This document shows, piece after piece, positions 37,338 through 44,328 of a DNA stretch of 64,000 nucleotides. The notes under the pieces are model-generated. The model was given only the letters and a program-made list of their open reading frames with translations. It was not told where the DNA came from and did not search any database. Made by a program: the position numbers and the translations under genes. How positions within the stretch are numbered: the first letter of the stretch is position 1; every line of letters begins with the position of its first letter. Location: contig ONMZ01000006.1 in NCBI GenBank assembly GCA_900319075.1, positions 28,032 to 92,031 of the forward strand, in the 5' to 3' direction. The DNA is from an uncultured Eubacteriales bacterium. Lineage in GTDB: Bacteria; Bacillota; Clostridia; Oscillospirales; Ruminococcaceae.

Positions 37338-38030
37338 ATGCTATTTCAGCTGCTTGAACTTTTATGCTCAAATTTTCTGTTTTTTGCCCTCCACTTTGAC
37401 AGCTCCGGAGCTAACTTTCCAAAGCCCCTTTCCGCCAAAGAAGAACGTCGCTGCTTTGAAGCCATGGCGGCAGGCGACAAAAAAGCCCGTGACAAGCTTA
37501 TCGAGCATAACCTGCGCCTTGTGGCTCACATTATCAAAAAATATTACTCCGCCTCAGCCGATCAGGACGATCTTATCTCGGTGGGTACCATCGGGCTTAT
37601 AAAGGCAGTTTCCACATTTGACTACAAAAAAGGCTGCCGCTTTGCCACCTACGGCAGCAGATGTGTGGAAAACGAGATACTTATGTATTTTCGCAGCCAG
37701 AAAAAAACTGCCCTTGACAGGCATTTCGACGACCCGGTGGACTCGGATAAGGACGGAAATAAGCTTTGCCTTATCGACCTTATATCCGACGGAACAGATG
37801 TTGGGGACAAGATCGAGCTGGCAATTCGCTGCGAACAGCTCTATAAGTTTATCAGCTCCGAGCTGGATGAGCGGGAACAGACCATAATACGTCTGCGGTA
37901 CGGCCTTTGTAACGGAAAATCCCTTACTCAGCGTGAAGTCGCCGCAAAGCTGGGGATATCACGCTCGTATGTTTCAAGGATAGAAAAGAAAGCCCTGGAA
38001 GTGCTTAGGAGAAAATACGAGGGAAAATAA
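37338..38030 (+). CDS. sigK: Sporulation-type RNA polymerase sigma factor, SigK-like
   Basis: 230 residues. Region 2 (ARDKLIEHNLRLVAHIIKKYY, DDLISVGTIGLIKAV, TFDYKKGCRFATYGSRCVENEI) and region 4 (ELDEREQTIIRLRYGLCNGK, TQREVAAKLGISRSYVSRIEKKAL) match sigma-K/sigma-E. A short hydrophobic N-terminal stretch (LFQLLELLCSNFLFF) looks like the pro-sequence removed in mother-cell activation. The gene is uninterrupted: no skin-type element is present. It suggests a sporulation lineage even if the organism does not sporulate visibly. Confidence 0.88.
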   Translation: MLFQLLELLCSNFLFFALHFDSSGANFPKPLSAKEERRCFEAMAAGDKKARDKLIEHNLRLVAHIIKKYYSASADQDDLISVGTIGLIKAVSTFDYKKGCRFATYGSRCVENEILMYFRSQKKTALDRHFDDPVDSDKDGNKLCLIDLISDGTDVGDKIELAIRCEQLYKFISSELDEREQTIIRLRYGLCNGKSLTQREVAAKLGISRSYVSRIEKKALEVLRRKYEGK

Positions 38031-38143: not shown

Positions 38144-38182
38144 GACTATGAACGGATCTTGCACCAAAGGAGGGATAATGAT

Positions 38183-41100
38183 ATGGATAATCTTAAAACT
38201 GTGCTTATCGTTGACGATGCTTTTATTAACCGTGCTCTCCTTAAAAAACTTCTCTCCGGCTCATATAACGTGATCGAAGCCGAAGACGGCAAACAGGCGC
38301 TGGAAACTCTCCGCAAAGACCCCCAGAGCGTGTCTTGCGTCCTGTTGGATCTTGATATGCCTGTAATGAGCGGCTATGAGGTGCTCAGCGCTGTGCGGAT
38401 GGATCAGCAGCTCAACAAGATCCCTGTTGTTGTCACCACCTCCGGAGACAGCACAGACAGCGAGATAAAAGCCCTTTCATTCGGAGCCTGGGACTTTATC
38501 AAAAAGCCTATCGCTCCACAGGTGCTTAAATTCAGGATAAATAACGCCATTGAGCGCAGCCAGTTCACCGCCTATGAACAGCTGAAATACATGGCGGAGT
38601 TTGACCCACTTACAGATATTTTCAATAAGGACAAATTCTACTCTGAGACCGAAAAGCTTATTGCACAGCACCCGGACAAGCGCTTTGCGATCATCAGGCT
38701 TGACATAAACAATTTCAGCCTTATCAATTCCTTCTTTGGAATGGAAGAGGGCAATTCCCTTTTGCGCTATATCGCAAAGCATCTGCGTGTAAACACCGCC
38801 GATTTTATCGGCAGCGCTTTCGGAAGGATAGAGACGGACATCTTCGGTATCTGCGTTCCCTTCTCGGACAAGCAGAGCGTTGAGCATTTTGTTATGCGAA
38901 GCATGAACGCTTTGCAGAGCTTTTCCAACGCCTACTATATTGTCCCCTGCTTTGGCATATATATCACCGGGGAGGAAGATATCCCCGTGTCCATAATGTT
39001 TGACAGAGCCACCCTTGCGGCAAAGCACTGCAAAGGGAACTTTGTGAACTATTTTGAATATTATAACGACGATATGCGCCTTCGCATCGAGAAGGAGCAG
39101 GAGATAACCAACGATATGAATATTGCCCTCCAGGACAGACAGTTCACTATCTACGTACAGCCAAAGTATAACATTATGACCAACACACCCGCAGGAGGCG
39201 AGGTGCTCGTCAGATGGATACACCCCACAAAGGGAATGATACCTCCGGGATTTTTCATACCCCTGTTTGAAAAGAACGGCTTTGTGGTAAAGCTTGACGC
39301 ATATGTGTGGGAAGAGGCCTGCATAATGCTGAAAAAATGGATAGACCAGGGCAGAGAGCCTAACCCTATCTCCGTTAACGTTTCAAGAGTTAATATTTAT
39401 AACCCACACTTTGTGGAGAATATCATAAAGCTGGTGGACAGGTACCAGATACCCCATAACCTGTTCAATGTGGAGCTTACCGAAAGCGCATATACCGACA
39501 ACCCTGAAATGATGGTAAAAGCCATCGAGGTGCTGCGTAACAACGGCTTTACCGTAATGATGGACGACTTCGGCAGCGGGTATTCATCTCTTAGTATGCT
39601 GAAAAATATACCTGTGGACGTTCTTAAAATAGATATGAACTTCTTTATCGACGCAAACAGCCAGAGCCGCTGTGAAAGCATCGTGGCATCTGTCGTAAGA
39701 ATGAGCAAGTGGCTGAATATCCCCGTTGTTGCCGAGGGTGTGGAAACCGAGGAGCAGATCGGATTTCTCAGAGAGATCGGCTGCGATTTTGTCCAGGGCT
39801 ACTACTACGCAAAGCCTATGAGCGTCAAGGATTACGAGCGCTATGCATTTGCCTCGGACGGAAACCTTAACGACCTTATCAATATGGGCAGAAATGCCTC
39901 TGAGATAATGAGCCTTATAAACAGCAAGGTGGTATTTACCGACAACCTCTCCCCTGCAGCGGTAATAGAGTGCGATATCTATGACCCGGAGGATATGGAA
40001 ATAATCCGTGTGAACGATGCGTTTTTTGAGCTTCTAAACTCCCCTTCAAGGGTCCTTTATAAGTATAACCCCATGGATATAGTCTACGAAAAGGACAGAT
40101 GGAAAATAGTTGAAACTGCCCGTGAAGCAATCGACTCAATGGGTACAGCCGAGTGCGAATACAACAGGTATATCTCGTTCAGCAACAGCTATAAGACTAT
40201 CCACGCCACAATGGAGTACATAGATACCATCGGCAGCAAGGCTATCGTCCTTGTACAGCTTGAGGACGTTACGGTGGAAAGAGAGTTCCAGAAAAAGCTG
40301 GACAAGCTCCGCCAGTCCATGCACTCGGATTCCGGGCTGTCAAATCGTATGCTTATTGTGGACAATGAAAAGACAGAGCTTGATACACTTAGCTCTTTCT
40401 TCAGCGATAAATTCATTATCACCACCGCATCGGACGGCAAACAGGCGCTTGAAGCCCTGAAGGAAAACAACAACGTGGACATAATCATCGTTGATGTGGA
40501 TATGCCTGTGATGAACGGCATCGAATTTATGAAGATCAAAAATCAGGATCCTGCCCTTCAAAGCATACCTGTGGTCATAACCACCGCAGAAAATTCCGCC
40601 TCTTTGCAGCAGACCCTGCTCAGCATGAACGTTAACGATTATGTGGTCAAGCCCTATGTCCGTGAGACAATGGTCCGCAGAGTTGACAACGTTCTGGGCT
40701 CGGATAAGTATTTCCGTGAGGTCATCAACAGGCACAGCAATTCCCCTTGGGTCATAAACGACTACACCACCGGGATATATACCCGCAGCACCGCCGAAAA
40801 GCTCATCAATAAAATGATGAAGGAAAATGTGGGTATGTGTGCTTTTCTGACTATAACCGTGGACAGGTTCAAAGAGATAACCAAGGAAAACGGTGTACAG
40901 ATGACCGACAGGATGATCTTTGAGCTTGCACAGATGCTTGTATCCATGTTCAGGACAAACGACGTTGTTGCAAGGGTAAACGACGACGAGATATGTGTAC
41001 TTATGAGCAACATCGCCGGAGAGGAAACGGTCGAGGCAAAGTGCATACAGGTGACCGAAAAGATCGCCAATCTTGATCTGAAGCTTACCGCAGCCTACCT

Positions 41101-41236
41101 GTCCTGCACCATAGGAGCGGTTGTTCTTGCAAACAATATGCGTTTTGCCGAGATGCTCGACCTTTCTCACAGCGAGCTTGAAAAGGCAAAAAAGGACGGC
41201 ACAAGCTGGTCGGTAAAGCTCCTTGAAAACAAATAA
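38183..41236 (+). CDS. REC-GGDEF-EAL-linker-REC-GGDEF cyclic-di-GMP signalling protein
   Basis: 1017 residues. REC1 (1-120) has its phospho-Asp in LLDLDMPVMSG. GGDEF1 (about 135-290) is degenerate: RIETD replaces the active motif near 215. EAL (about 305-555) looks catalytic: GGEVLVRW, NVELTES, MDDFGSGYSS, LKIDMNFF, AEGVETEEQ. A PAS-like linker (560-700) leads to REC2 (about 715-840; VDVDMPVMNG, but VDN where the acidic pair is expected). GGDEF2 (860-1010) is also degenerate (RVNDDE). Net activity is therefore predicted to be c-di-GMP hydrolysis controlled by two receivers. GGAGGG is 9 nt before the ATG. No histidine kinase is adjacent on this strand. Confidence 0.9.
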   Translation: MDNLKTVLIVDDAFINRALLKKLLSGSYNVIEAEDGKQALETLRKDPQSVSCVLLDLDMPVMSGYEVLSAVRMDQQLNKIPVVVTTSGDSTDSEIKALSFGAWDFIKKPIAPQVLKFRINNAIERSQFTAYEQLKYMAEFDPLTDIFNKDKFYSETEKLIAQHPDKRFAIIRLDINNFSLINSFFGMEEGNSLLRYIAKHLRVNTADFIGSAFGRIETDIFGICVPFSDKQSVEHFVMRSMNALQSFSNAYYIVPCFGIYITGEEDIPVSIMFDRATLAAKHCKGNFVNYFEYYNDDMRLRIEKEQEITNDMNIALQDRQFTIYVQPKYNIMTNTPAGGEVLVRWIHPTKGMIPPGFFIPLFEKNGFVVKLDAYVWEEACIMLKKWIDQGREPNPISVNVSRVNIYNPHFVENIIKLVDRYQIPHNLFNVELTESAYTDNPEMMVKAIEVLRNNGFTVMMDDFGSGYSSLSMLKNIPVDVLKIDMNFFIDANSQSRCESIVASVVRMSKWLNIPVVAEGVETEEQIGFLREIGCDFVQGYYYAKPMSVKDYERYAFASDGNLNDLINMGRNASEIMSLINSKVVFTDNLSPAAVIECDIYDPEDMEIIRVNDAFFELLNSPSRVLYKYNPMDIVYEKDRWKIVETAREAIDSMGTAECEYNRYISFSNSYKTIHATMEYIDTIGSKAIVLVQLEDVTVEREFQKKLDKLRQSMHSDSGLSNRMLIVDNEKTELDTLSSFFSDKFIITTASDGKQALEALKENNNVDIIIVDVDMPVMNGIEFMKIKNQDPALQSIPVVITTAENSASLQQTLLSMNVNDYVVKPYVRETMVRRVDNVLGSDKYFREVINRHSNSPWVINDYTTGIYTRSTAEKLINKMMKENVGMCAFLTITVDRFKEITKENGVQMTDRMIFELAQMLVSMFRTNDVVARVNDDEICVLMSNIAGEETVEAKCIQVTEKIANLDLKLTAAYLSCTIGAVVLANNMRFAEMLDLSHSELEKAKKDGTSWSVKLLENK

Positions 41237-41438
41237 AGCCGCACTTTATGGACTGCACTTGTACAGAAGCATTATAAACTCTTTTTGGGGAAAACCCTTT
41301 TGCAAAAGGGTTATTCCCCAAACCCCTTTCCTAAAACTCTTAATGATTTTTAAACCCCGAGCAATAAAAAGATGTTCCTCAAAACAGTTCATAAGGCTTC
41401 TATATAAGTACTGCCCTTAATGTGCGGCTTTTTTATTA
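41231..41438. repeat. Palindromic dispersed repeat, copy 2 (about 208 bp)
   Basis: Outer arms AAGCCGCAC (41236-41244) and GTGCGGCTT (41422-41430) bound the element. Read on the minus strand, 41345-41416 is about 75% identical over 60 nt to 28124-28185 of copy 1. Plus-strand 41255-41281 matches the other end of copy 1 in 22 of 27 positions. An extra hairpin GGGGAAAACCCTTTT / AAAAGGGTTATTCCCC (41287-41319) sits in the middle. It separates two convergent genes. Confidence 0.7.
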
Positions 41439-42761
41439 CATATCCTCTATCAGATACGGCAGCTGTACCGTAAAGCATACGCCCGTCGGCTCGGTGTTTT
41501 CCACCCATACGCTTCCGTTGCAAAGCTGGACCACCCTTTGCACAAGGGCAAGTCCCAGTCCGTTGCCCTCGGTCGACCTGGAACGGTCGCCCTGATAGAA
41601 CTTTTCAAATATCTTCTTGCGCTTTTCGTCGGGTATACAAGGCCCGTCGTCGGATATCTTCACCACGATGCACTGCTCCCCGTGGTAAAGCTTCACCCCG
41701 ATGTGTCCGTTCTCGTCGGTGAACTTTATGGCGTTGTTGATAATGTTTTGCCATATCTGCGCCATAAGCTCCTCATTGCCTATGTATGTGGTCTGTTCAA
41801 GATCTACCTCAAGCTCGATATTCTTCTTTGACCACTCCGGCTCAAGGACAAGCAGTATCTTTCTTATCTGCTCGTCAAGCAGGAACTTGGACTTTTTACC
41901 GATAGTCTTTTGGTTTTCCAGCTTGGTAAGGCTGAGAATGTTGGTGGAAAGCTTGGTAAGCCTTGATGTCTCGTCAATTATTATCTGGGTGTATTCACGT
42001 CTGTCCTCCTCGGAAAGGTTCTCGTCCTGCAAAAGCTTGGCAAAACCCTGGATCGAGGCAAGGGGCGTTTTGAACTCGTGGGATACGCTGGATATGAAAT
42101 CTCCACGAAGGGTCTCGATCTCGGAAAGCTGCACCGCCATTTTATTGAAGTTGTTTGCAAGCATTCCGTACTCCATATCGTCCGGCACACGCACACGCAC
42201 CGTAAAGTTTCCCCTTGCGATCTCTGAGGTGGCACGGCTCATGTCGTGCAAAGGCTGAAGTATGGTCTTACCCACGAATGAGGTTATTATCGTACCGATA
42301 ACTATACAGCCCACAAAGGCAAGTATTATAACAAAGTTCACTATCCAGTACAAACTGTCGTTTGAAAAGTTGTCGATGTGATAATAGCTGTCAAATACCT
42401 TTATGACCATTGTGGCTTTGGGGATAATACCGGTGGCTTCTATATGATAGCCCTTGTCTTTTATGTCCGTGAGGTTTTCCCCGACTTCATAACTGTCCTC
42501 TTCAAGCAGCTCAACATTGAACCCGGAATTGGTCACCAGCGAAACGACCTTTGCCGCATCATATGTACCGTCGGCTTTTTTATCCCTGACCAGATCCGTA
42601 AGGGCGCTCACCGAAGCAGCAACTTCCGTAAGCTGTGTCTCTGCATTCTTTTTCATTATTGGTGAAAAGATCAGCAGCAGCAAAGATACCGAAACAGAGG
42701 CAGAAATAAGCATGACCATAAAAAACATAAACGAAAGCTTGAATTGCAGTGTGGTCTTCAT
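41436..42761 (-). CDS. Membrane sensor histidine kinase (PhoR-like)
   Basis: 441 residues. Helix 1 (12-34), an extracytoplasmic domain of about 110 residues, helix 2 (146-166), HAMP (167-220), HisKA with the phospho-His in SSVSHEFKTPLASIQ near 228, and HATPase with NNAIKF, DDGP and GLGLALVQR. It should autophosphorylate and pass phosphate to the regulator encoded 24 nt upstream. The neighbouring Na/Pi cotransporter and the Pho-type boxes in the adjacent interval support a phosphate-sensing role (inference). GGAGGTGAG precedes the ATG. Confidence 0.9.
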   Translation of the reverse strand: MKTTLQFKLSFMFFMVMLISASVSVSLLLLIFSPIMKKNAETQLTEVAASVSALTDLVRDKKADGTYDAAKVVSLVTNSGFNVELLEEDSYEVGENLTDIKDKGYHIEATGIIPKATMVIKVFDSYYHIDNFSNDSLYWIVNFVIILAFVGCIVIGTIITSFVGKTILQPLHDMSRATSEIARGNFTVRVRVPDDMEYGMLANNFNKMAVQLSEIETLRGDFISSVSHEFKTPLASIQGFAKLLQDENLSEEDRREYTQIIIDETSRLTKLSTNILSLTKLENQKTIGKKSKFLLDEQIRKILLVLEPEWSKKNIELEVDLEQTTYIGNEELMAQIWQNIINNAIKFTDENGHIGVKLYHGEQCIVVKISDDGPCIPDEKRKKIFEKFYQGDRSRSTEGNGLGLALVQRVVQLCNGSVWVENTEPTGVCFTVQLPYLIEDM

Positions 42762-42785: not shown

Positions 42786-43460
42786 TTAGCCCTTGACAGC
42801 CTTATAACCCAGTCCTCTCACGGTAACGATGTTAAAATCCTTACAATCGCCGTATCTTTCACGCAGACGCTTTATGTGAACGTCCACCGTTCTTTCGTCA
42901 ACTTCCTTTTCCATTCCCCACAGCTCATCAAGGAGCTGGCGGCGGGTAAAGATCTTGTTGGGGTAAGAAAGAAGCTTGAAAAGCAGCATAAATTCCTTTG
43001 TGGGTATGGTCTCCGCCTGACCTCCCCCGATAGATACGCTTTGTGCATCGTAATCCAGCACGCTGTCACCTACGACAAGCGAGTGCTCCGAAGCCATTTT
43101 CGACCTTCTAAGCAGCGCTCCCACACGCAGCACCATCTCGTTGAGATCAATAGGCTTGACCATGTAATCGTCCGTGCCGGCAGTAAACCCCTCCTGCTTA
43201 TCCTCAAAAGTCTCCTTTGCGGTGACCATAAGTATAGGCAGGTCGTATTTTGCACGGCGCAGCTGTCTTGTAAGCTCATAGCCGTCCATATTTGGCATCA
43301 TAACGTCCGAGATGATAAGATCAATATTAGTCTTTTCCATAACGTCCAGCGCTTCAAGCCCGTCGTTTGCCGTATGGCATGAATATCCGTGCTGTTTCAG
43401 CGTTGCGCTGATAAGCTTTCTGAGGCTGGCGTCGTCTTCAACGATAAGTATCTGAAACAT
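42786..43460 (-). CDS. OmpR/PhoB-family response regulator (PhoP-like)
   Basis: 224 residues. The receiver has the acidic pocket (IVEDDASL), phospho-Asp in IISDVMMPNMDG near 54, and Lys in MVKPIDLNE. The winged-helix output domain ends with RRQLLDELWGMEKEVDERTVDVHIKRL-type sequence. Upstream on the same strand is an untranslated leader with UGAAAGGUGAGGGG before the ATG. That leader is complementary to a segment shared by the two small RNAs described below. It is cotranscribed with the kinase and is likely the activator of the Pho-type boxes at 43.69 and 44.06 kb (inference). Confidence 0.9.
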   Translation of the reverse strand: MFQILIVEDDASLRKLISATLKQHGYSCHTANDGLEALDVMEKTNIDLIISDVMMPNMDGYELTRQLRRAKYDLPILMVTAKETFEDKQEGFTAGTDDYMVKPIDLNEMVLRVGALLRRSKMASEHSLVVGDSVLDYDAQSVSIGGGQAETIPTKEFMLLFKLLSYPNKIFTRRQLLDELWGMEKEVDERTVDVHIKRLRERYGDCKDFNIVTVRGLGYKAVKG

Positions 43461-43578
43461 TTACCCCTCACCTTTCACATAATTCCATTTTTTCCATTCA
43501 AACCGCCCCCGGATAAACCCCGAAAAGGCATTTCCCTTTATTAGACAAGTTTACAACAAAATTATGAACTTGTGATTA

Positions 43579-43682: not shown

Positions 43683-43689
43683 CCTGAAA

Positions 43690-43721
43690 TTCATATTCGG
43701 TTCACGTTGGACTGTTATTAT
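43690..43721 (+). promoter_or_regulatory. Pho-box promoter of small RNA A
   Basis: TTCATA, 5 bp, TTCACG (43690-43706), then 9 bp to TATTAT (43716-43721). There is no TTGACA-like -35. Two TTnA(C/T)A-type hexamers with 5-bp spacing in place of the -35 are the layout of PhoP/PhoB-activated promoters. Confidence 0.65.
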
Positions 43722-43727
43722 GTATAC

Positions 43728-43900
43728 AACAAAGAGAGAAATGACTTAATCGTTTGACACTGAGTAAAACTTAAAATCCCCTCACACTAATGCGGCCCCC
43801 AATCCGCCTGACCGGATTTCAGCTTTTACTGAATGTCAAAAAAATCCCTTTCATAATTCCATAGATTAAAACCCATTCAAAGGAATGGGTTTTAATTTTT
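43728..43900 (+). ncRNA. Candidate phosphate-responsive small RNA A
   Basis: About 173 nt from the expected start to the terminator, with no frame longer than a few codons. It contains a small hairpin AATCCG-CCTGAC-CGGATT (43801-43818), a CCCCUCAC segment (43778-43785), and the 18-nt segment UCCCUUUCAUAAUUCCAU (43845-43862) immediately before the terminator. The 18-mer is identical in RNA B. Both segments are complementary to parts of the response-regulator leader (GUGAGGGG and AUGGAAUUAUGUGAAAGG). It probably acts by base pairing on mRNA ribosome sites. Ends are inferred; expression is not shown. Confidence 0.6.
43865..43900 (+). terminator. Terminator of small RNA A
   Basis: A perfect 14-bp stem ATTAAAACCCATTC / GAATGGGTTTTAAT, 4-nt loop, then TTTT. 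Confidence 0.92.
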
Positions 43901-44059
43901 GTGTTTTTGCTTATCTTTGCGGATCGTAAAAAAACATACCGAAAGAAAATTTTTTCAAAGTTCTTTTGATGTTTTTCAAAAGCCTGCGTATTTAAGCCGT
44001 TTCAGCCGTTTCAGGGTGTCCAAAAAATTTCTCAAAAAATTTTGGAAAGTTCCCGAAAA

Positions 44060-44091
44060 TTCATATTCAATTCACACAGGGCTGTTATTAT
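44060..44091 (+). promoter_or_regulatory. Pho-box promoter of small RNA B
   Basis: TTCATA, 5 bp, TTCACA (44060-44076), then 9 bp to TATTAT (44086-44091). The geometry is identical to unit A, exactly 370 bp upstream. Confidence 0.65.
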
Positions 44092-44097
44092 GTATTT

Positions 44098-44244
44098 GTC
44101 AAAGGAAATAGTGACAAGATCTTACCTTTCATGCTGTCCCCAATATTCGGCTTGAAAGTTTCAATACGCTAATTCTTAATTTCCCTTTCATAATTCCATG
44201 AATTTAACACTTACTTCCCATGTGGGAGTGGGTGTTAAATTTTT
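44098..44244 (+). ncRNA. Candidate phosphate-responsive small RNA B
   Basis: About 147 nt. It shares with RNA A the promoter, a short 5' block (CAAAG...TGAC), and the 18-mer UCCCUUUCAUAAUUCCAU (44182-44199) before the terminator. It also has ACCUUUCAU (44124-44132), complementary to UGAAAGGU in the response-regulator leader. The middle differs from RNA A, including a palindrome TTGAAA-G-TTTCAA (44152-44164). A 14-codon GTG frame near 44111 is not conserved in RNA A. The rest of this interval (44245-44328) shows nothing. Confidence 0.6.
44202..44244 (+). terminator. Terminator of small RNA B
   Basis: ATTTAACAC / GTGTTAAAT outer stem with an inner ACTTCCC / GGGAGT extension, then TTTTT. Confidence 0.88.
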
Positions 44245-44328
44245 ATACGCCTTTTTGCGTTATTTGCCACGTTCATCAGCACACTCAGCCTTGTGACCTA
44301 TGGCTTTTCCCATTTAAAGGCATATGCA

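Follow-up and report, generated by a model that had tools for sequence, protein, structure and literature searches.

Tandem sibling small RNAs predicted beside an HssR-related two-component system in Ruminococcus and neighbouring genera

The locus described here (43690-44245 of the window, i.e. of the whole 64,000-nucleotide stretch that was analysed) consists of two diverged small RNA (sRNA) units placed 370 bp apart. Each unit carries a TTCATA-N5-TTCAC(G/A) box, reading TTCATATTCGGTTCACG in unit 1 and TTCATATTCAATTCACA in unit 2, followed after 9 bp by TATTAT, a non-coding body, an 18-mer common to both units (TCCCTTTCATAATTCCAT) and, directly behind this 18-mer, a terminator-like hairpin (Table 1). 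Promoter, seed, and terminator are common to the two units; the bodies differ. A preliminary description of this DNA had already listed the diverged pair with its spacing, boxes, 9-nt gap, and TATTAT elements, and all of these are confirmed in the sequence, as is an intrinsic terminator for each unit behind the shared 18-mer. Its statement that a -35 hexamer is lacking agrees with a promoter scan that lists no sigma-70-type site for either start, and its RNA without a frame agrees with inspection by eye, in which no conserved reading frame was seen in the units. Upon folding, both RNAs beat 200 of 200 shuffles (z -5.4 for unit 1 and -4.5 for unit 2). Divergent from the sRNAs is the gene of an OmpR-family response regulator, accompanied by that of a sensor histidine kinase in which Pfam finds no PAS domain, HisKA coming directly after HAMP. 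No ABC transporter of an hrtAB-like efflux pump adjoins this pair in the window, as judged by eye. Positions 38159-41236, convergent with the kinase gene, encode a protein of 1025 aa in which receiver-like stretches and others resembling GGDEF/EAL are seen by eye. Positions 37338-38030 encode a sigma factor that by eye is similar to sporulation sigma factors.

Table 1. Features of the sRNA locus and the adjoining two-component system (positions in the window).
Feature	Position	Strand	Basis
Sensor histidine kinase (HAMP, HisKA, HATPase; no PAS found)	41436..42761	-	
OmpR-family response regulator (HssR-related), divergent from the sRNAs	42786..43460	-	orthologues beside the family in 37 genomes
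Predicted sRNA target over the ribosome-binding site of the regulator mRNA (ATGGAATTATGTGAAAGG)	43471..43488	-	
Activator box of unit 1, TTCATA-N5-TTCACG, direct repeat replacing the -35	43690..43706	+	sequence, shuffles, genus pattern counts
Extended -10 of unit 1 (TGT TATTAT), 9 nt past the box; TATTAT at 43716-43721	43713..43721	+	sequence, unit tally
sRNA 1 (class A), extent predicted, with a start deduced from the -10	43728..43903	+	
Long covarying stem P1 around hairpin P2 (43792-43807; C-rich loop)	43753..43841	+	
Conserved seed of sRNA 1, TCCCTTTCATAATTCCAT, unpaired in the consensus	43845..43862	+	
Intrinsic terminator of sRNA 1, covarying; hairpin at 43863-43898	43863..43903	+	
Activator box of unit 2	44060..44076	+	
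Extended -10 of unit 2; TATTAT at 44086-44091, 9 nt past the box	44083..44091	+	
sRNA 2 (class C), predicted extent	44098..44245	+	
Conserved seed of sRNA 2	44182..44199	+	
Intrinsic terminator of sRNA 2	44201..44241	+	

With up to two mismatches allowed, the box core occurs at only these two places in the window, both of them exact (shuffle mean 0.51; 6 of 100 shuffles reach two such matches). The -10 elements are preceded by TG, making them of the extended type, a feature absent from the preliminary description and present in 47 of 47 units tallied; because the box half-sites served to select the units, only the TG and the -10 are independent in this tally. Among seed-defined units, 47 of 48 have box and -10 in register, and the 48th begins at a contig end. 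The box plus -10 pattern was counted at 65 sites in 29 genomes of the genus Ruminococcus, versus 2 for the reversed pattern, and we read 52 of these sites as promoters of this sRNA. The RNAs therefore look like the main box-bearing output of the system. The genome to which the window belongs holds just two exact sites of this pattern, both sRNA promoters. Its box sites with up to two mismatches number 32 (two exact) versus 21 for the reversed control, and none convincing of a wider regulon was seen among 25 viewed of the 30 non-exact ones. At one locus (L040), TATACT stands at a similar distance from the box, with no clear gene close downstream. Ten of the 13 non-sRNA sites in the genus were read: five lie upstream of an ftsH-like gene and one (in G001) upstream of a membrane permease-like gene; two of the remaining three show ftsH-type box letters. 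The box 5' of the ftsH-like gene in five genus genomes (L133, L134, L140, L154, L157) has the form TTCAC-N6-TTCAC-N10-TATAAT, and the clade concerned is, we presume, R. albus-like. At four loci (L011, L012, L013, L015), a further box and -10, with no seed of their own, stand some 140 bp 5' of the sRNA promoter, as if they were a decayed unit or gave a longer transcript.

The family is present in 28 of the 29 genus genomes and, beyond the genus, in nine genomes accepted from three other genera, which makes 37. DNA similarity alone finds the unit in 23 of the 29, own genome included, while the 17-mer CCCTTTCATAATTCYAT, with at most one mismatch and in sRNA context, occurs in 27 of them (57 copies); in G026, the promoter and the 5' part of the unit lie at a contig end. 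One genome that is 80% complete (G007) has no unit by DNA similarity, seed, or box pattern. Copies number one to five per genome, in tandem, with repeats ca. 280-310 nt apart. An extra sRNA copy was seen in G010 (L075, G010:C18:8551), with no regulator gene within the 1.5 kb fetched. A search of relatives with a covariance model, as proposed in the preliminary description, used a model built from 29 units. Under the stricter filters set for large genome samples, which miss weak matches, 15 family genomes out of 297 sampled gave a match (nine from other genera, five from this genus, and G270); in a sample of 394 from the order, only the own genome and G405 did. The nine from other genera were accepted on the box and the neighbouring regulator; the matches in G270 and G405 lack box, seed, and regulator and were rejected. 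Conservation of the boxes and the 18-mer in relatives, on which the preliminary description had staked its reading, is borne out by the seed (27 of 29 genomes) and by box and -10 (47 of 48 units). In 37 of 37 genomes (28 of the genus and nine others) a cluster is divergent from the same regulator gene, whose orthologues next to the sRNAs are ca. 70-99% identical to the window regulator. No Rfam family matches the units, the whole window giving RNase P only, and six loci searched with an E-value limit of 5 gave nothing close to a gathering score. The literature on Ruminococcus and Ruminococcaceae RNAs, among the matches listed and with few subscription journals covered, holds no description of the sRNA family; within that compass the earlier remark that no described family fits is upheld. 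Family, synteny, box, structure, and seed are computationally established, and we regard the RNAs as a genuine sRNA family that seems not to have been described before, ordinary as to kind, though its members are new.

The RNAs fall into several structural classes. In class A (16 units aligned), a long-range stem (P1) and a hairpin (P2) whose loop is C-rich are followed by an unpaired seed and the terminator. Its 37 pairs have standard pairs in 97.4% of the cells, and 12 of them change on both sides. Covariation amounts to 0.329 versus 0.206 in shuffles, none of 500 being as high, although related sequences may inflate this test; slid structures reach at most 0.109. The further pair types (29, versus 30.4 in shuffles) are not above the shuffles, which speaks against our main reading. 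Class C (8 units, including unit 2) has a hairpin of its own with a CCCC loop and the same 3' part as class A, and in five-copy genomes most units are of a shorter class made up of P1, seed, and terminator. The seed, CCCUUUCAUAAUUCYAU, is nearly invariant; it is unpaired in the class A consensus and partly paired in that of class C. In the unit 1 fold and in the class C consensus, though not in the unit 2 fold, part of the seed is taken up in pairing with the purine-rich 5' end. Three of the nine other-genus genomes (G063, G170, G292) have a seed altered by insertion or substitution, again a point against the main reading.

To place the regulator, a tree of 24 regulator rows was computed and also run without PhoB. 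On one side of a 100/99 split are the window regulator, HssR, and their relatives; on the other are PhoB, four further own-genome regulators, and the PhoP-like ones of G001 and G012. The split is kept without PhoB, with a long-branch warning. All seven sRNA-linked regulators that the tree includes fall into a single clade (99/91). Staphylococcus aureus HssR and a Listeria relative fall just outside the clade of the window regulator (fork 100/98), which is therefore a relative of HssR and not an orthologue. Pairwise scores, from a comparison that took in a few named regulators, agree with the tree. With the Listeria HssR-like protein the window regulator reaches 209 bits and with S. aureus HssR 179, whereas a PhoB gives 142 and the PhoP-like regulators of the own genome (C29) and of G001 give 130-131. 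The best matches of window regulator and kinase adjoin each other in a 2.9-Mb Listeria record, and in an annotated Listeria record the corresponding pair stands upstream of two ABC transporter genes. We call this pair HssRS because of the 52% identity to the annotated S. aureus HssR, because of the two ABC transporter genes that come after it, and because a study of Listeria, in its accessible part, describes hssRS upstream of hrtAB and reports that heme induction requires the HssR repeat of the hrtAB promoter (PMC6305404). Distant relatives of the regulator were sought in contigs with a regulator alignment, a search whose short patterns match many OmpR regulators and which served for these alone. 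It gave 80 loci among the matches listed, none above 64% identity, and in five of ten viewed by eye (L191, L193, L194, L198, L202) ABC transporter genes adjoin the regulator; the RNA array may therefore have replaced a transporter. Upstream of the Listeria transporter gene, which we take to be hrtB, lies TTCACATTCCGTTTACA-N9-TAAACT, in which 14 of 17 box positions have the commonest letters of the sRNA family. The published HssR repeat of S. aureus is GTTCATATT-N2-GTTCATATT. Altogether the system looks tied to an envelope or heme-type sensor, and not to phosphate.

Of immediate interest are the possible targets of the seed, which is complementary to GAAAGG-type ribosome-binding sites. Duplexes were ranked in the own genome over 415 crudely called leaders (from the window, 400 kb of other stretches, and small stretches) and two excisionase leaders added by pattern search, with energies that disregard accessibility. 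Among these 417, the two excisionase leaders come first and second (-33.2 and -28.7 kcal/mol), a GGDEF-EAL gene third, and the cognate regulator fourth (-20.0 kcal/mol). A GGDEF-EAL-like gene (L316:16646-18931), other than that of the 1025-aa window protein, has the chromosomal leader that pairs best with the seed in the sample. With each genome's own seed, the regulator leader ranks among the best 5% of this null in 11 of 35 genomes, where 1.75 would be expected, and among the best 10% in 13; in 11 it falls into the worse half. These genomes are related to one another, and the null was drawn from a single genome and contains the window's own regulator leader. The regulator mRNA is thus a plausible feedback target, not a universal one. 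The pattern GAATTATGAAAGGH has 14 sites in the 29 genomes versus 1 for the reversed pattern; a fairer control that keeps GAAAGG and AT-rich flanks gives a mean of 4.9 per variant (313 matches, 64 variants), which undercuts that excess, and a genome-wide target motif is not claimed. Seven of the 14 sites belong to one excisionase-like family, so the excess outside it is small. No perfectly complementary site common to all was found among the 29 genomes, which counts against our main reading, as the long conservation of the seed is not accounted for. Copies of the 17-mer with one mismatch outside sRNAs and mobile elements occur in G009:C22, G009:C44, and G023:C19.

Outside the sRNAs, the 29 genomes hold six exact copies of the 17-mer, and each runs antisense across the start region of an excisionase-like gene, small and of the helix-turn-helix type; two further antisense excisionase copies carry one mismatch. 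In four stretches read by eye, the excisionase-like gene is situated between relaxase-like and integrase-like genes, and a second excisionase-like subfamily has GAATTATGAAAGGA at the same place. The copies occur in genomes whose sRNAs have the matching TTCCAT variant, a match that may stem from common descent. Short matches are common, and only long ones are therefore counted as evidence. The loci L295 (C56) and L296 (C35) of the own genome and L297 and L298 of G016 appear by eye to be small integrative mobilizable elements, with 16-19 nt of complementarity between the sRNA seed and the excisionase start region. Viral contigs were searched as well and gave 29 exact matches.

Reading these genomes alone, we think that the locus probably represents a two-component system with tandem sibling sRNAs that block ribosome-binding sites, among them those of its own regulator mRNA and of an excisionase. 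A sensor kinase related to the HssS type (heme or envelope stress) would phosphorylate the divergently encoded regulator, which would bind the TTCATATTCGGTTCAC-type direct repeat and activate the extended -10 promoters of one to five sRNAs. Transcription would end at the intrinsic terminators, and each RNA would display a C-rich seed of 17-20 nt (AAUCCCUUUCAUAAUUCYAU) between a structured 5' domain and the terminator. By pairing with GAAUUAUGAAAGG-type ribosome-binding sites, the seed would block translation, giving negative feedback on the regulator mRNA in some genomes and silencing the excisionase of integrative mobilizable elements.

The preliminary description had interpreted the locus otherwise, as phosphate-starvation sRNAs between a PhoPR-like system and a phosphate importer. 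In the full form of this reading, a PhoPR system would act through PHO boxes, and the RNAs would tune metabolism at low phosphate together with the Na/Pi transporter. Of that interpretation, the duplicated unit, the direct-repeat box in place of the -35, and the tie to the adjacent OmpR-type system stand in silico; PhoPR and phosphate are not supported. PHO boxes are repeats of the hexamer TT(A/T/C)A(C/T)A with 5-bp spacing, a rule that TTCATA-N5-TTCACA fits, and so does the sequence upstream of the presumed Listeria hrtB. The Na/Pi-PhoU gene does adjoin the sRNAs in this clade, but it converges on them, its start is 1.9 kb away, and nine of the 28 genus genomes show it there within the ca. 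1.5 kb fetched; what lies on the far side of the sRNAs differs among genomes. PhoB and PnpS are the best NCBIfam matches of regulator and kinase, both below the cut-off; against this, the regulator groups with HssR relatives and away from both PhoB and the PhoP-like regulators of the genus, by the tree and by the pairwise scores, and by the PhoB model (TIGR02154) it ranks sixth in its own genome (191 bits; best 232), although this model does not discriminate, S. aureus HssR also having 191 bits. A different regulator lies beside a Na/Pi-PhoU gene and a kinase in G001 (by eye), ca. 5 kb from PstS; the C29 regulator of the own genome groups with it at 100/99, and the C29 kinase has 251/232 bits on the PnpS/PhoR models versus 212/171 for the window kinase. 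These kinase models do not separate the types, the Listeria kinase having 242/214 bits and that of G001, cut by the locus end, 179/146, below the window kinase. In a test of eight genus genomes, PstS (TIGR02136) was matched in only two, with scores short of the cut-off; transporters of the Na/Pi-PhoU type may therefore account for phosphate uptake. Other systems of the same genomes are better PhoPR candidates, phosphate is unlikely to be the signal, and we hold the phosphate-starvation reading as a whole to be quite improbable.

Other explanations concern the mode of action of the RNAs. They might mainly bind a protein or another RNA, as a titrating sponge for which the 17-mer would be a binding site and not an antisense seed. 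The multiple copies would fit titration, the 17-mer is conserved over its full length, beyond what a short anti-Shine-Dalgarno seed needs, and no universal, perfectly complementary target was found; but the motif is the C-rich complement of ribosome-binding sites, its six exact copies outside the sRNAs are antisense over excisionase-like start regions, and in pairing the leader of the own regulator ranks high among those sampled, which makes this alternative an unlikely one. That the units are cis-acting leaders, attenuators, or read-through elements is very improbable: such leaders also use a hairpin and T-run, yet here a promoter-like site and a terminator go with every unit, up to five copies follow one another at ca. 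280-310 nt, and in the window the next gene is on the opposite strand. Small peptides, suggested by AAAGGAAATG near the 5' end of some class-B copies, are hardly credible as the product, for the ATG is not in all copies, indels shift the frames, and the changes follow pairing.

The preferred model, sibling RNAs that act on ribosome-binding sites, can be set beside known systems. In the PhoB/PhoP regulon, a hexamer repeat takes the place of the -35, and this regulon shares with the present locus an OmpR-family regulator and such a repeat; it differs in that better PhoPR candidates exist among the other systems of the same genomes. HssRS-HrtAB (with the related HitRS) appears to be the nearest of the few named two-component systems compared, and a similar box architecture precedes the Listeria transporter; HssRS, however, controls an ABC efflux pump, and here sRNAs hold the divergent position. 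The csRNAs of streptococci likewise are multi-copy sibling sRNAs under a response regulator (CiaRH) with a direct repeat of 5-bp spacing, their CiaRH-dependent box being TTTAAG-N5-TTTAAG in the part of the source available (PMC8186281). Regulator and box are different, the present copies lie in one cluster beside the regulator gene (except for the extra one in G010), and their seed is longer and conserved; the two are likened by descriptions, not by sequence. LhrC1-5 of Listeria monocytogenes is a multi-copy sRNA family under a two-component system (LisRK). Its five copies are induced by envelope stress and heme, and UCCC motifs in loops and a single-stranded stretch bind Shine-Dalgarno sequences, as given in the accessible parts of three papers (PMC4132741; PMC6305404; PMC5880928). 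Unlike the LisR-driven LhrC, the present RNAs have no Rfam match and are always beside the regulator gene. Traits of the csRNA/LhrC kind found here are the one to five copies with a shared seed and their own promoters and terminators, and the C-rich seed that is complementary to ribosome-binding sites and unpaired in the class A consensus.

Ruminococcaceae are major fibre degraders of the gut, and their regulatory RNAs seem little studied. The family is conserved, structured, multi-copy, and bound to one regulator gene, and is therefore testable by a single RNA-seq experiment in a cultured member. If our model is true, the Ruminococcaceae gain a two-component-sRNA circuit like that of the csRNAs or LhrC. 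Going further, and rather doubtfully, an HssRS-related system in Ruminococcus and three neighbouring genera may have swapped its efflux-pump output for an array of sibling RNAs, the seed of which restrains the mRNA of its own regulator and silences the excisionase. This contains a testable claim, namely that a host sRNA controls the excision of integrated elements; if it is true, a stress signal of the host would decide whether integrative mobilizable elements can leave the chromosome.
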